22,988 bases of DNA. Source: Candidatus Schekmanbacteria bacterium (GTDB taxonomy: Bacteria; CSSED10-310; JACPHN01). The position numbers and the translations under genes were made by a program. The notes below the pieces were generated by a model. That model did not search any database. It had not been told where the DNA came from and was given only the letters and a program-made list of their open reading frames with translations. Numbering within the stretch: position 1 is the first letter of the stretch; every line of letters starts with the position of its first letter. Shown here piece by piece: positions 81 to 6,677 of the stretch. The stretch covers positions 1-22,988 of the forward strand of contig JACPHN010000209.1 of the NCBI GenBank assembly GCA_016188575.1, written 5' to 3'.

Positions 81-344
81 ACTCCGACTGCAAGTCAGGA
101 ACGCTGTTCGCCTGGCGACGGAGACGGCGTAGACATCAACGCTGTCTACGTTTGTCTACCTTTTTAGGAACGGTCTGCAGAGGGAAGGAAGGCCGCCCAC
201 TGAGGTGCTTGTCCAGAGAGGCCCCAGGAGTTTCGGCGTCGGCCGAATGTGGCTTACACTTGCCGGAAGTTGAAGGCGGTGCGGCACCTGGGACCGCGGG
301 CCTCCGGCCCGCATCTTCCCCCCGCCCCGGCGACGTTGAACGCC

Positions 345-688
345 GCAAAACGTCGACGAACGCACCTTGGCCGGCCCAGGAGCACTTGTCGACTGTCGAC
401 GAACGCATCCCGGCCGACCGCGCGCACCCTGTCGATTGTCGACAGGGTAACCTGGGCCGCCCAAGTGACACTTGTCGACTGTCGACAAGCTCACATCGGC
501 CGCCCCTGCGTACTCTGTCGATGTTCGACAGACTTGCCTGGGCCAGGCCAGGTGGGTCTGTCGAAGCTCGTGAACCTGACATCGGCCGTCCCAGGTGACC
601 TCGTTGAATGTCGACAGGCGTACCTGGTCCGGCCAAACAGCGGCTGTCGACAATTTCGGGGCTCGGCCGAAGGTCCTCAGATGCTCGG
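345..688. repeat. Degenerate 43-bp tandem array of palindromes (about eight units)
   Basis: A 13-base near-palindrome of the form GTCGACTGTCGAC recurs exactly every 43 bases, at 388, 431, 474, 517, 560, 603 and 646, with a half-preserved copy at 345-357. The 30-base intervals are diverged but share a central GGCCG(C/T)CC and often end in CTT or TCT. In three units the complementarity runs past the core with different flanks: ACCCT/AGGGT around 426-448, CTT/AAG around 471-489, and TCT/AGA around 514-532. The period is not a multiple of three, so it does not encode a protein repeat. Weaker traces lie upstream, such as GGCCGCCC at 191 followed by GTCCAG at 211, so the array was probably longer. 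It lies beyond the 3' end of the transketolase gene. Confidence 0.85.
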
Positions 689-915
689 AAGTGTCGTAGG
701 CGCCCGCCTCCCTGCCTCCCCATGAGCGCCCGGATAAGGAGTGGCGGCGCGCAATGACCCTCCGCCGCTCACTGCGGGGAGGCCGGGAGAGGGTAGAACG
801 GCGAGCCCGCCGCTGTCCGCCCCCCGCCCCGACCCTCCCCCCGCCCCCGGAGGGGATGAACAGATACCCGTAGCGCGTCCGCTTCCGCGCAGGTCCGATG
901 GGTACGGAGCCGCGC
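689..915. other. Non-coding GC-rich spacer 3' of transketolase
   Basis: No gene is supported here. The segment is C/G-homopolymer rich. Positions 761-790 (CCGCCGCTC, then GCGGGGA, then GGGAGAGGG) resemble 4322-4352 in the other intergenic region and may be a decayed fragment of the same dispersed repeat. A short CCCC-CGGA-GGGG hairpin near 845-856 could help end transketolase transcription, but it has no T-run. Confidence 0.4.
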
Positions 916-2967
916 TCACAACATCGCTCTTGCCGCAACCACTACGGCATCGACGGTAAACCCAAACGTCGCGAGCAGGTCCGTGAACGGCGCCGACGCG
1001 CCATAGCCGCTCATGGCGATGACGCGGCCCGCCAGACCTGTGTAGCGTTCCCAGCCGAACGCCACTGCCTGCTCGACCGCCAGGCGCGCGGTAACCGCCG
1101 GAGGCAGCACGAAGTCGCGGTAGTCCTCATCCTGCTCCGCGAAAATCTCCCAGCACGGCATGCTCACCACCCGACACGGTATTCCTTCGGCCTCGAGTCG
1201 CTCGTGCGCCGCCACACAGAGGCTGACCTCGCTGCCGGTGCCGAGCAGCATGACGCGCGGCGGTGTCTGCGACTCCGCAGCCAGAACGTAGGCGCCCCGG
1301 GCCGCGCCTGACGCCGGCGCATGGCGCGACCGATCCAGTGTCGGAACCGGCTGCCGTGACAGCACCAGCGCGGCCGGCGCGTGGCGCATGGGGATGATCG
1401 CGCGCCAGGCCTCGACTACTTCATTGGCATCGGCCGGGCGGAACACCCGCAAACCCGGAATGGCGCGCAGCGACGCGAGGTGCTCTACCGGCTGATGGGT
1501 CGGTCCGTCTTCGCCGACGCCGATCGAGTCGTGGGTGTAAATGTGGATGACCGGGAGCTCCATCAGCGCCGACAGGCGCAGAGTCGGTCGCGCATAGTCG
1601 CTGAAGACGAGGAAGCCGGAGCCGAAAGGCCGGAGCTTGCACAGGGCCAGACCGTTGAGGATTGCTCCCATGGCGTGCTCTCGCACTCCAAAGTGGAAGT
1701 TCCGGCCCCCGGGCTCGCGCGCCGAAAGGTCGCCGGCACCTGCAAAGGTCAGTCGCGTCTTGGTCGATGGGGCGAGGTCCGCGGCGCCCCCCACAAGCCA
1801 CGGAATGTTCTTCGCGATCGCGTTGAGGACCTTGCCCGACGCATCGCGTCCGGCCATGCCTTTGGTGTCCGGCGGGAAGGCCGGCAAGTCGCGGTCCCAC
1901 CCTTCCGGCACGGTGCCCCGCTGCAGGTGCGCGAGCTCGCCGGCGAGCTCCGGGTAGGCCGCCGCGTACCTGGCAAAGAGGCGTTTCCATTGCGCGCTCA
2001 AATCCGCGCCGCGCCGAGCGAAACCCGCCGCGAAGTGCGCTCGCACCTCTTCTGGAACGAGAAACTGCGCGTCCTCTGGCCACCCGTAGGCGCGCTTGGT
2101 CAACCGTGCTTCGGCCTCGCCGAGTGGCTCGCCGTGGGCGGAGTGCGTATTCATCTTGTTCGGCGAGCCGAAACCGATCTGGCTGTCAACGATGATGAGC
2201 GTTGGCCGACCGGTCGGGCTCGGGAAGGTCGCCAGCGCCCGCGAGATCAGGTCGAGATCGTTGGCATCCACGACGCGGGTGACGGTCCATCCATACGCCT
2301 CGAACCGGGTCGCGACATCCTCGCTGAAGGCGAGCGCCGTGCTGCCCTCGATCGTGATCCGGTTGCTGTCATAAATCCAGCAGAGGTTGTCGAGCCCGAG
2401 GTGGCCGGCCAGCGAGGCTGCTTCGCTCGAAACTCCTTCCATCATGCAGCCGTCGCCGGCGAGCGCGAACACGTTGTACCCGATGAGCTCGAGATCGGGC
2501 CGATTGTACCTGGCACCCAACCACTTCGACGCGATCGCCATGCCGACGCTGTTTGCCACGCCCTGGCCCAAGGGGCCCGACGTCGTCTCCACCCCTGCAG
2601 TCAACTGACATTCGGGGTGTCCAGGGCAGCGACTGCCGAGCTGGCGGAAACGCTTGAGGTCAGCGAGCGAGACCGACTCCGCGGCGATGACTTCGCCGTG
2701 AGCATTGACCGCCCTCACCCCGGTCAGATGCAACAGGCTGTAGAGCAGGGTCGAGGCGTGGCCCATCGAGAGGACGAAGCGATCGCGATTGGGCCACAGC
2801 GGGTCATGGGGATCGTAGCGGAGGAAACGGTCCCAGATCGCATAGGCTACCGCCGCCATCCCCATGGGGGCTCCGGGGTGCCCGGAGCTCGCATGCTGAA
2901 CGGCGTCGATGCAGAGCGTGCGAATTGTCGTGATCGACAGTTGGTCGATGTCGGTTGGCAAGGGCAT
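916..2967 (-). CDS. tkt: Transketolase
   Basis: This thiamine-diphosphate enzyme moves two-carbon ketol units between sugar phosphates in the cytosolic pentose phosphate pathway (and the Calvin cycle where present). The 683-residue protein has the usual length and full domain order. GHPG lies at 29-32 and GHAS at 69-72. The ThDP/Mg motif runs from GDG at 171-173 to the Asn near 202. The pyrimidine domain carries the catalytic Glu in GVREHAMG, and the C-terminal domain has the characteristic SGYGASAP. The ATG at 2967 is supported by AAGGA seven bases upstream. The alkylation-repair gene ends 126 bp upstream on the same strand. No break or missing catalytic residue was seen. Confidence 0.97.
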   Translation of the reverse strand: MPLPTDIDQLSITTIRTLCIDAVQHASSGHPGAPMGMAAVAYAIWDRFLRYDPHDPLWPNRDRFVLSMGHASTLLYSLLHLTGVRAVNAHGEVIAAESVSLADLKRFRQLGSRCPGHPECQLTAGVETTSGPLGQGVANSVGMAIASKWLGARYNRPDLELIGYNVFALAGDGCMMEGVSSEAASLAGHLGLDNLCWIYDSNRITIEGSTALAFSEDVATRFEAYGWTVTRVVDANDLDLISRALATFPSPTGRPTLIIVDSQIGFGSPNKMNTHSAHGEPLGEAEARLTKRAYGWPEDAQFLVPEEVRAHFAAGFARRGADLSAQWKRLFARYAAAYPELAGELAHLQRGTVPEGWDRDLPAFPPDTKGMAGRDASGKVLNAIAKNIPWLVGGAADLAPSTKTRLTFAGAGDLSAREPGGRNFHFGVREHAMGAILNGLALCKLRPFGSGFLVFSDYARPTLRLSALMELPVIHIYTHDSIGVGEDGPTHQPVEHLASLRAIPGLRVFRPADANEVVEAWRAIIPMRHAPAALVLSRQPVPTLDRSRHAPASGAARGAYVLAAESQTPPRVMLLGTGSEVSLCVAAHERLEAEGIPCRVVSMPCWEIFAEQDEDYRDFVLPPAVTARLAVEQAVAFGWERYTGLAGRVIAMSGYGASAPFTDLLATFGFTVDAVVVAARAML

Positions 2968-4584: not shown

Positions 4585-4651
4585 GTGAAAAAGGGACGGC
4601 CAAGCGTGTCCTGCCCCGCGCCCGGCCAGCTCGCTCGGTGCTCGCAGCTCT

Positions 4652-5554
4652 TTGCCGCAGGCCGCCATTCCCCTGCAGATGCTTCTTCTCGAAGGCAAAC
4701 CAGACGTGCAGCTCTTTGGTCCTATCCGCTCAGGCTTCGTGCGGCTCGAATCGACCCGCCTGCGGAGTCGCGCCGCATGGTTGCGCGACGCGCTGGCCAA
4801 CTACGCCGCGCTGGCCAACCACGCCGCGCATCCTTACCTGGTGCGATATCAGAAAGCGGTGCGGGTGTTATCGCTCGTCTTGGGCGTTTTCCCGCTCTAC
4901 TTCGTCATCAACGCGCGAACGCGTGGCGAGGTAGCCGCCGATCTCACTCTGGCGATCGATCGGGCCGTCGCGTTCGAGCCGACCTGGCAATACGTCTATT
5001 CGGCCGTGTACTTGTTCATGTTGCTGCCACTTTTCGTCGTCCGTTGCAACGAGCTCATCCGCCGGGCGTTCTGGGCATACCTGTTCATCCTCGTCGTCAG
5101 CTTCGGCTTTTTTCTGGCGTACCCCGTGCGATACCCGCGACCCGAGCTGGACGTTTCCAGTCTCGCGACGTGGGGAGCGCGGCTGAACTTTTTTCTCGAT
5201 GGCCCTCACAATTGCTTCCCTTCGCTTCATCTCGGGACCGCGTTCGCCTCGGCGCTGGTTCTCTGGCGGGTCGATCGGCCGGTCGGGCTCGGTGCGATGC
5301 TTGCCGCCACCGTCATTGGCTATTCGACGATGGCTGTCAAACAGCACTTTTTTCTCGATGTGCTCGCGGGAACGTCGCTAGGCGTGGCTGCCTACGCCCT
5401 GTTCGTGCGCAGCTATCCTCGCGGCGGCCGTCCCCGCGCCGAGATCCTTCGGCCACGCCGCTACTTGCTGCTTGCTGCGGCTTGCTATGGCGCGTTCGTG
5501 CTGTTTTGTCTCTGCGGCTACCTGGCCGACTGGCGGCCGTGGGAGCCGGGCTGA
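4652..5554 (+). CDS. PAP2-superfamily membrane phosphatase
   Basis: This is an integral membrane protein of up to 300 residues in the phosphatidic acid phosphatase type 2 / inositol-phosphoceramide-synthase-like group, which hydrolyses or exchanges lipid phosphates at the membrane surface. Hydrophobic segments lie near 70-87, 115-131, 139-157, 193-205, 209-225, 238-252 and 270-290. The catalytic motifs are CFPSLHLGTA (His193) and KQHFFLDVLAG (His232 and Asp236). The Arg usual at the start of the third motif is not evident. The reading frame opens with TTG at 4652; the first ATG is at 4679 (residue 10), and neither has a clear ribosome site, so the start is uncertain. It converges on the histidine kinase gene with only 25 bp between stops. 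The lipid substrate cannot be told from sequence. Confidence 0.85.
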   Translation: MPQAAIPLQMLLLEGKPDVQLFGPIRSGFVRLESTRLRSRAAWLRDALANYAALANHAAHPYLVRYQKAVRVLSLVLGVFPLYFVINARTRGEVAADLTLAIDRAVAFEPTWQYVYSAVYLFMLLPLFVVRCNELIRRAFWAYLFILVVSFGFFLAYPVRYPRPELDVSSLATWGARLNFFLDGPHNCFPSLHLGTAFASALVLWRVDRPVGLGAMLAATVIGYSTMAVKQHFFLDVLAGTSLGVAAYALFVRSYPRGGRPRAEILRPRRYLLLAAACYGAFVLFCLCGYLADWRPWEPG

Positions 5555-5579
5555 CGCGGCGACGTGGATCCAGGCCTTT

Positions 5580-6677
5580 CTAGCGAAGTGGCAGCACCAC
5601 TCGAAAGACGGCCCCGCCAATGGCGCCGCAAGCGTCGATTACGTTTCTCGCATCCGCACGGCCGCCGTGTGCCTCCACAATACCCTTGACGATCGCCAGG
5701 CCGAGCCCCAATCCATCGACGGGTGCCGCGCTCGGACCGCGCTGCTGCGGAAGGAATATCGTCTGCAGCTCGTCCTCAGGGACTCCGGGGCCGTCGTCGG
5801 CCACCTCGACCGTGACATCCTCCTCCGCTAACGCCAGGGACACGCAAACGCGGCTCCTTGCGAAGCGTATGGCGTTGGTAACCAGGTTGGTAACGGCGTT
5901 GACGACCCGCGCTTCATCCAGCTCCAGGCAAATGTCTGTTTGCCCCAGCCGAGCCTCCAGCCTTCGTCCAAAGCGCGCGGCCAGGCCGGCCATGTCGGCG
6001 ATGGCTTCCGACAACACCGCGCGCAGGTCGACTGCCTGCTTGTCGAGAGTGAGCTGACCCGATTCGATACGCGAGTGATCGAGCAGATCGTTGATGAGAC
6101 GGATCTGCCTTTGTACCTGGCGGTGAATGGCGCCGAGCAGTTGGCGCTGCAAATCGGTCGGCCGGCGTTCGTCGTCTACGAGCAGGTTATCGACGAGAAT
6201 CGATATCGTTGCGGCGGGTGCTCGCAGATCGTGCGAGACCACCGCCAGGAGTCGATCTTTCTCGCGATTGAGGCGTTCGAGCTGGGTGTTCGCGGCACTG
6301 AGCCGCTCCGCGGCCTCCTTACGGGCGGTGATGTCGAGTACCGAGCACATGACGAGCATGCCGTCCGGGGACCTGATCGGGTTCAGACCCACCTCGACGG
6401 GGAACACGGAACCGTCCTTGCGCCGGGCGAGCAGATCGCGTCCTCTGCCCATCGGGCGCTGCTCCGGAGACCTCATGTAGCCCGCGCGCATGGCAGCATG
6501 GTGTGGCTTCGCAGCATCCGGAAGCAGGACATCCACGACCGCCCCGGCGAGCTCTCCTTCGCGGTACCCAAAGAGTCGCTGAATTTCGGAATTCACGAAC
6601 AGGATTGTTCCGTGGGCATCGACGACGATCATGCCTACCGGCGATGCCTCGACGGCAAGGCGAAAGAGCTCGTTCAT
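5580..6677 (-). CDS. PAS-domain sensor histidine kinase
   Basis: The 365-residue protein has no membrane segments and is probably a soluble signal sensor. A PAS domain occupies about residues 3-118, ending in the PAC-type strand VMCSVLDITARKEAAERL. A short coiled coil leads to the HisKA dimerisation helix with the phospho-acceptor His149 in VVSHDLRAP. The ATPase domain shows the N-box at 260-272 (Asn264, Asn268), the G1 box DDGPGV at 294-299 and the G2 box GLGLGLAIV at 322-330. All catalytic boxes are intact. No response regulator lies nearby, so the partner is unknown. The ATG at 6677 has only a distant GAGG upstream. The PAS ligand or redox cofactor cannot be inferred. Confidence 0.93.
   Translation of the reverse strand: MNELFRLAVEASPVGMIVVDAHGTILFVNSEIQRLFGYREGELAGAVVDVLLPDAAKPHHAAMRAGYMRSPEQRPMGRGRDLLARRKDGSVFPVEVGLNPIRSPDGMLVMCSVLDITARKEAAERLSAANTQLERLNREKDRLLAVVSHDLRAPAATISILVDNLLVDDERRPTDLQRQLLGAIHRQVQRQIRLINDLLDHSRIESGQLTLDKQAVDLRAVLSEAIADMAGLAARFGRRLEARLGQTDICLELDEARVVNAVTNLVTNAIRFARSRVCVSLALAEEDVTVEVADDGPGVPEDELQTIFLPQQRGPSAAPVDGLGLGLAIVKGIVEAHGGRADARNVIDACGAIGGAVFRVVLPLR

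Follow-up and report, generated by a model that had tools for sequence, protein, structure and literature searches.

The transketolase locus and its palindrome array

The window, i.e. the whole 22,988-bp stretch of contig JACPHN010000209.1 analysed here (assembly GCA_016188575.1, Candidatus Schekmanbacteria bacterium), carries near its left end a transketolase gene whose 3' end points towards a tandem array of palindromes embedded among dispersed repeats (Table 1). Autocorrelation over positions 301-720 gave peaks only at 43, 86 and 129 (0.49, 0.54 and 0.46, respectively), and TRF scored the array at up to 208. An earlier note, made from the letters of this DNA, had described GTCGAC-N-GTCGAC cores at exact 43-base steps in about eight units, extending to position 688. 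The 43-bp step stands, whereas the count becomes a half-site, six full palindromes and a second half-site, one per 43 bp (352-651; full-site centres at 394, 437, 480, 523, 566 and 609), the array ends near 651-671 and the literal core occurs in only two sites, the working core being TGTCGA-NNN-TCGACA. The same stretch can be described as seven 40-bp TCGA...TCGA units separated by 3-nt linkers. The complementary flanks noticed in three units (ACCCT/AGGGT, CTT/AAG and TCT/AGA; 430-444, 473-487 and 516-530 with their flanks) are present, as is the second, GGCCG-type core midway between palindromes, which occurs in most units at 21.5 bp from the palindrome centre and constitutes a second mirror axis. 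Axes were found on the resulting 21.5-bp grid at 372.5, 394, 437, 458.5, 480, 523, 544.5 and 630.5, and the dyad lattice scored above 2000 of 2000 position permutations. Having two mirror axes per unit, the array therefore matches its own reverse complement.

Table 1. Coordinates of the array, its sites and its surroundings in the window
Feature	Position	Strand	Basis
Flanking dispersed repeat A, begins GGCGTCGGCCGAATG, about 40 genome matches	235-320	+	Sequence search
Gapless co-linear stretch common to window and contig C127 (82%, 324 bp)	348-671		Sequence search
Whole array, GGCCG-core mirror axes at 372.5 + 43k	352-651		Unit alignment, dyad and lag tests
Left terminal half-site GTCGAC	352-357		Sequence; same aligned place in C127 and C66 copies
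Palindrome 1, centre 394	387-401		Sequence and model match
Palindrome 2 TGTCGATTGTCGACA, flanks ACCCT/AGGGT	430-444		Sequence and model match
Palindrome 3 TGTCGACTGTCGACA	473-487		Sequence and model match
Palindrome 4 TGTCGATGTTCGACA	516-530		Sequence and model match
Palindrome 5, decayed right half (TCGTGA)	559-573		Sequence and model match
Palindrome 6	602-616		Sequence and model match
Right terminal half-site TGTCGAC	645-651		Sequence; aligned in copies
Flanking repeat T, begins GGCTCGGCCGAA, end abuts array, many copies	659-721	+	Sequence search
Dispersed repeat B, about 150 bp, at least 16 good copies	704-870		Sequence search
Transketolase gene, 3' end towards array	916-2967	-	Pfam

Repeats A and T both open with GGCGTCGGCCGAA (235-247 and 659-671), which is the end of a set of MITE-like elements of 87-209 bp with paired inverted ends GGCGTCGGCCGAATG...CATTCGGCCGACGCC, varied interiors and size classes near 88, 126-128, 150 and 208 bp. 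In the 1.8 Mb of DNA read directly, 24 pairs of these ends were correctly paired and one was in the opposite order. At the window array and at those on contigs C127, C66, C56, C156, C74 and C32, such an element turns its outer end towards the array at a distance of no more than about 20 bp. Of the 15 arrays, 10 have the end motif of these elements, TTCGGCCGACGCC, no further than 150 bp away, where 0.7 would be expected; the inverted-repeat elements form a family separate from the arrays. The arrays sit beside MITE-like elements but lie outside them and have no such paired ends of their own. Elsewhere in the window, a short 18-bp tandem repeat, CGCGCTGGCCAACCACGC (4789-4829), falls within a 332-aa frame (4585-5583).

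Copies of the array and the 43-bp lattice

The genome is a 9.2-Mb draft in 275 contigs, of which 1.8 Mb was read directly; some of the contigs read had been picked for carrying a repeat, so that the density of arrays cannot be extrapolated from them, and others yielded no further clear array. At least 15 arrays or fragments are present, in three sequence families that all have the 43-bp period. An array without any other copy, which the earlier note had named as a sign against its reading, is therefore not what we found, though all of the many copies belong to one genome. Family I comprises the window array and copies on contigs C127 and C66. The C127 copy is co-linear and gapless (82% over 324 bp), with the same half, six full and half sites; the C66 copy is older (69% by the search and about 61% when kept to the 43-bp register, with one 1-bp shift) and also consists of half, six full and half sites, its outer half-site having decayed. 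A periodicity scan exposed arrays of other sequence on C162 (family II) and C156 (family III), and searches with these scan-found arrays retrieved copies or fragments on C169, C56, C174, C119, C19 and C3 for family II, and copies on C107, C74, C32, C8 and C236 for family III. The units of the C74 and C32 arrays are near-identical, i.e. their sequences point to recent tandem growth, and the C19 array looks as if whole units had been lost. Exact TGTCGANNNTCGACA sites are confined to the arrays and occur nowhere else. The family III arrays of C156 (27950-28300) and C107 (9700-10030) resemble one duplicated segment that takes in the 3' ends of the adjacent genes.

Apart from a few bases where a gene ends, no coding-like frame is overlapped by any of the 15 arrays. 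Several abut the 3' ends of genes, and the neighbours vary between arrays, including transketolase, Fic, radical SAM and phosphomethylpyrimidine kinase genes as well as genes of no known kind. As the earlier note had proposed, the repeat is neither coding, substitutions being spread 18/18/21 over the codon positions and GC being flat by frame, nor a CRISPR, since its units are about 50-70% alike and there are no unique spacers between them. Outside this genome, no array was found in the other genomes of the phylum that were searched (seven) or in a 0.3-Mb sample, and plasmids and phages gave no matching array; two matches in viral contigs were discarded as chance matches in coding DNA, without an array.

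All of the 13 arrays tested have a significant dyad lattice with mirror axes every 21.5 bp, and so read alike on both strands. Over the 1.8 Mb, once multiples of three are set aside, 43 was the only period to recur (13 arrays), any other being found at most twice, bar its double, 86; in 11 of 13 arrays no other lag did as well as lag 43. With period and dyad scored jointly, 11 matches exceeded z = 3.5, all at lag 43 and one doubtful; lags 40, 41, 44, 46 and 47 gave none. The doubtful match (C239:29463) has a high joint score, yet no clear array was seen there on inspection. Alignment on the mirror axis brings out a similarity between families I, II and III (p = 0.015, 0.005 and 0.007), which, with the dyad lattice of all 13 arrays tested, suggests that they probably form a single superfamily. 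Two further tandem repeats, at C238 205-552 and C29 10972-11413, are strong and have periods of 88 and 83, also not divisible by three. A Nitrospirales locus (L057 8544-8800) was rejected: it is a minisatellite built of GGCGGGAATGACAGG units whose period falls near 43 by accident, and it lacks the dyad lattice.

Core conservation and arm drift

The compensating arm changes claimed in the earlier note did not reach significance. In the window array, left and right arms matched their own partners no better than under random matching (p = 0.13-0.55); pair counting on 18 sites was equalled in 59 of 500 shuffles for covariation and in 411 of 500 for double changes. Between the window array and its co-linear C127 copy, 16 single changes break a pair and 4 are compensated, which is the uncompensated drift that the note itself had held to speak against its claim. 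The palindrome cores diverged little between these two copies, in that 16.2 of the 92 positions would be expected to differ and 5 do (p = 0.0003), the three central bases of the family I palindrome being free to vary. Moreover, the degree of conservation across the units of the C66 copy predicts the window/C127 divergence (rho = -0.42, p = 0.0045), a correlation that is not circular because the C66 copy stands apart from the pair compared. Conserved cores and drifting arms between co-linear copies speak more for a protein site with symmetry than for a hairpin under selection. Upkeep by gene conversion or, in a family of three copies, chance could give the same picture as constraint, and no core conservation was seen in families II and III. 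As for indels, repeat B is rich in them compared with the arrays, which have fewer indels than repeat B (p = 0.001), though not fewer than repeat A.

Candidate mechanism, rival readings and known repeats

We consider that these observations are best explained by a regular array of symmetric sites in a dispersed, intergenic and non-coding repeat, together with a putative protein lattice, an explanation that we hold to be moderately probable. The copy in the window comprises about seven 43-bp units with two mirror axes per unit, 21.5 bp or about two helical turns apart, and arrays grow and shrink by whole units beside the unrelated MITE-like inverted-repeat elements. A DNA-binding protein, probably a dimer, would sit on the palindromes at four-turn spacing along one face of the helix, and the bound protein would build a nucleoprotein array, in the manner of ParB on sopC or of BIME arrays recruiting DNA proteins. 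The arrays would have spread by copying, and not by serving each neighbouring gene. The repeat is probably specific to this lineage and would serve as a row of protein-binding sites at even spacing, not as an RNA. Among the possibilities raised in the earlier note, namely a protein-binding array, a cruciform or recombination region and a serial-hairpin RNA, putative protein sites provide the best mechanism, whereas a hairpin RNA is unlikely, covariation being not significant.

A strong rival, which we regard as possible but less well placed, is that the arrays are selfish or neutral palindromic DNA, bound by no protein, that expands in tandem and then decays where it stands, its symmetry being left from the ancestral unit. 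The dispersal of arrays among MITE-like elements, the presence of both fresh and decayed arrays in the genome, the drift of arms without compensation, the lack of constraint on the cores of families II and III and the absence of a common neighbour gene are all consistent with this reading; against it, the family I cores were kept after duplication, and three families, though strongly diverged, have retained the 43-bp register and the mirror axes. An unlikely reading is that of a serial-hairpin RNA or a structure at mRNA 3' ends. The family I fold is very stable on both strands (z of about -11 and -8) and several arrays abut gene 3' ends, but covariation is not significant, the folds of the freshest arrays are barely, if at all, more stable than those of shuffled sequences (z -0.8 to -2), and the two strands are equal, which implies no preferred transcript. 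No promoter-like site was seen upstream of the array, and the array did not match Rfam; the sole match, on C127, was to the end of a group II intron. Besides this group II intron domain (RF00029; L022 3716-3794), that small contig carries a Fic gene as well as its copy of the family I array.

The known system that shares the period is sopC of the F plasmid, the centromere of a type Ia ParABS system, which consists of twelve 43-bp repeats, most of them containing a palindrome (PMC6238139), a published layout that we checked on its sequence. In both, tandem units of about 43 bp each contain an inverted repeat, one clear palindrome, and follow one another at about four helical turns (PMC6238139). 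The two differ in that sopC is a single locus beside sopAB with near-identical repeats, whereas the arrays described here are dispersed and diverged, have two symmetry axes per unit and lie near no par genes, Pfam having identified neither ParA nor ParB among the array neighbours. The sole clear ParB gene is on contig C5, a weak second match being on C195, and a canonical parS, GTTCCACGTGAAAC (L189 6758-6771), sits upstream of the chromosomal parAB operon on C5; this ParB/parS pair was rejected as partner of the arrays. To say that the arrays may work like sopC is therefore reasonable, but membership fails because there are no par genes near, the loci are many and the sole clear ParB has a canonical parS. 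A sopC-type partition centromere, possibly of plasmid descent, is accordingly highly improbable despite its 43-bp period and single palindrome per unit (PMC6238139), given that the loci are dispersed and number at least 15, that the one clear ParB gene belongs to a parAB operon with a canonical parS upstream, and that no match was found among plasmids.

Among dispersed repeats, BIME/REPIN and BOX elements appear to be the closest. The arrays are dispersed intergenic palindromes, as are BIMEs and tandem REP-REPINs, some of which form ordered tandem clusters (PMC3116915, PMC3733652). Array units are nevertheless far shorter than BIME modules, and none of the 8 loci of Y1 (IS200-like) transposases has a 43-bp array or TIR motif near it, so that an association with RAYTs was rejected. 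The boxB module of pneumococcal BOX is about 45 bp long. Like the arrays, BOX is dispersed between genes, and its boxB modules stand in tandem in varying number (PMC3049150), but the arrays appear to lack boxA- or boxC-like ends common to all copies, the motif TTCGGCCGACGCC near 10 of 15 of them being the end of a separate element; their units are symmetric and they occur in another phylum.

Beyond the putative protein-binding array, the repeat might represent a novel DNA-organising system, in which arrays of fixed 43-bp period and 21.5-bp mirror lattice, staying in register through sequence turnover in the three families, would be bound at many chromosomal places by a lineage-specific protein forming a helical nucleoprotein array, an idea that we find doubtful. 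That three diverged families keep one 43-bp beat and its mirror axes suggests that spacing and symmetry outlast exact sequence, the beat being that of the best-studied plasmid centromere. The list of interspersed repeats in bacteria is short, and the arrays would extend it by a new architecture; they also offer a directly testable, dispersed DNA lattice in an uncultured phylum. A further array, on contig C192 (L128, about 930-1225), has a 42-bp tandem period, with TGCCCCG-CTCGAG-CGGGGGCA palindromes that are 88% alike, and lies about 300 bp from an A repeat; it is possibly a related class.
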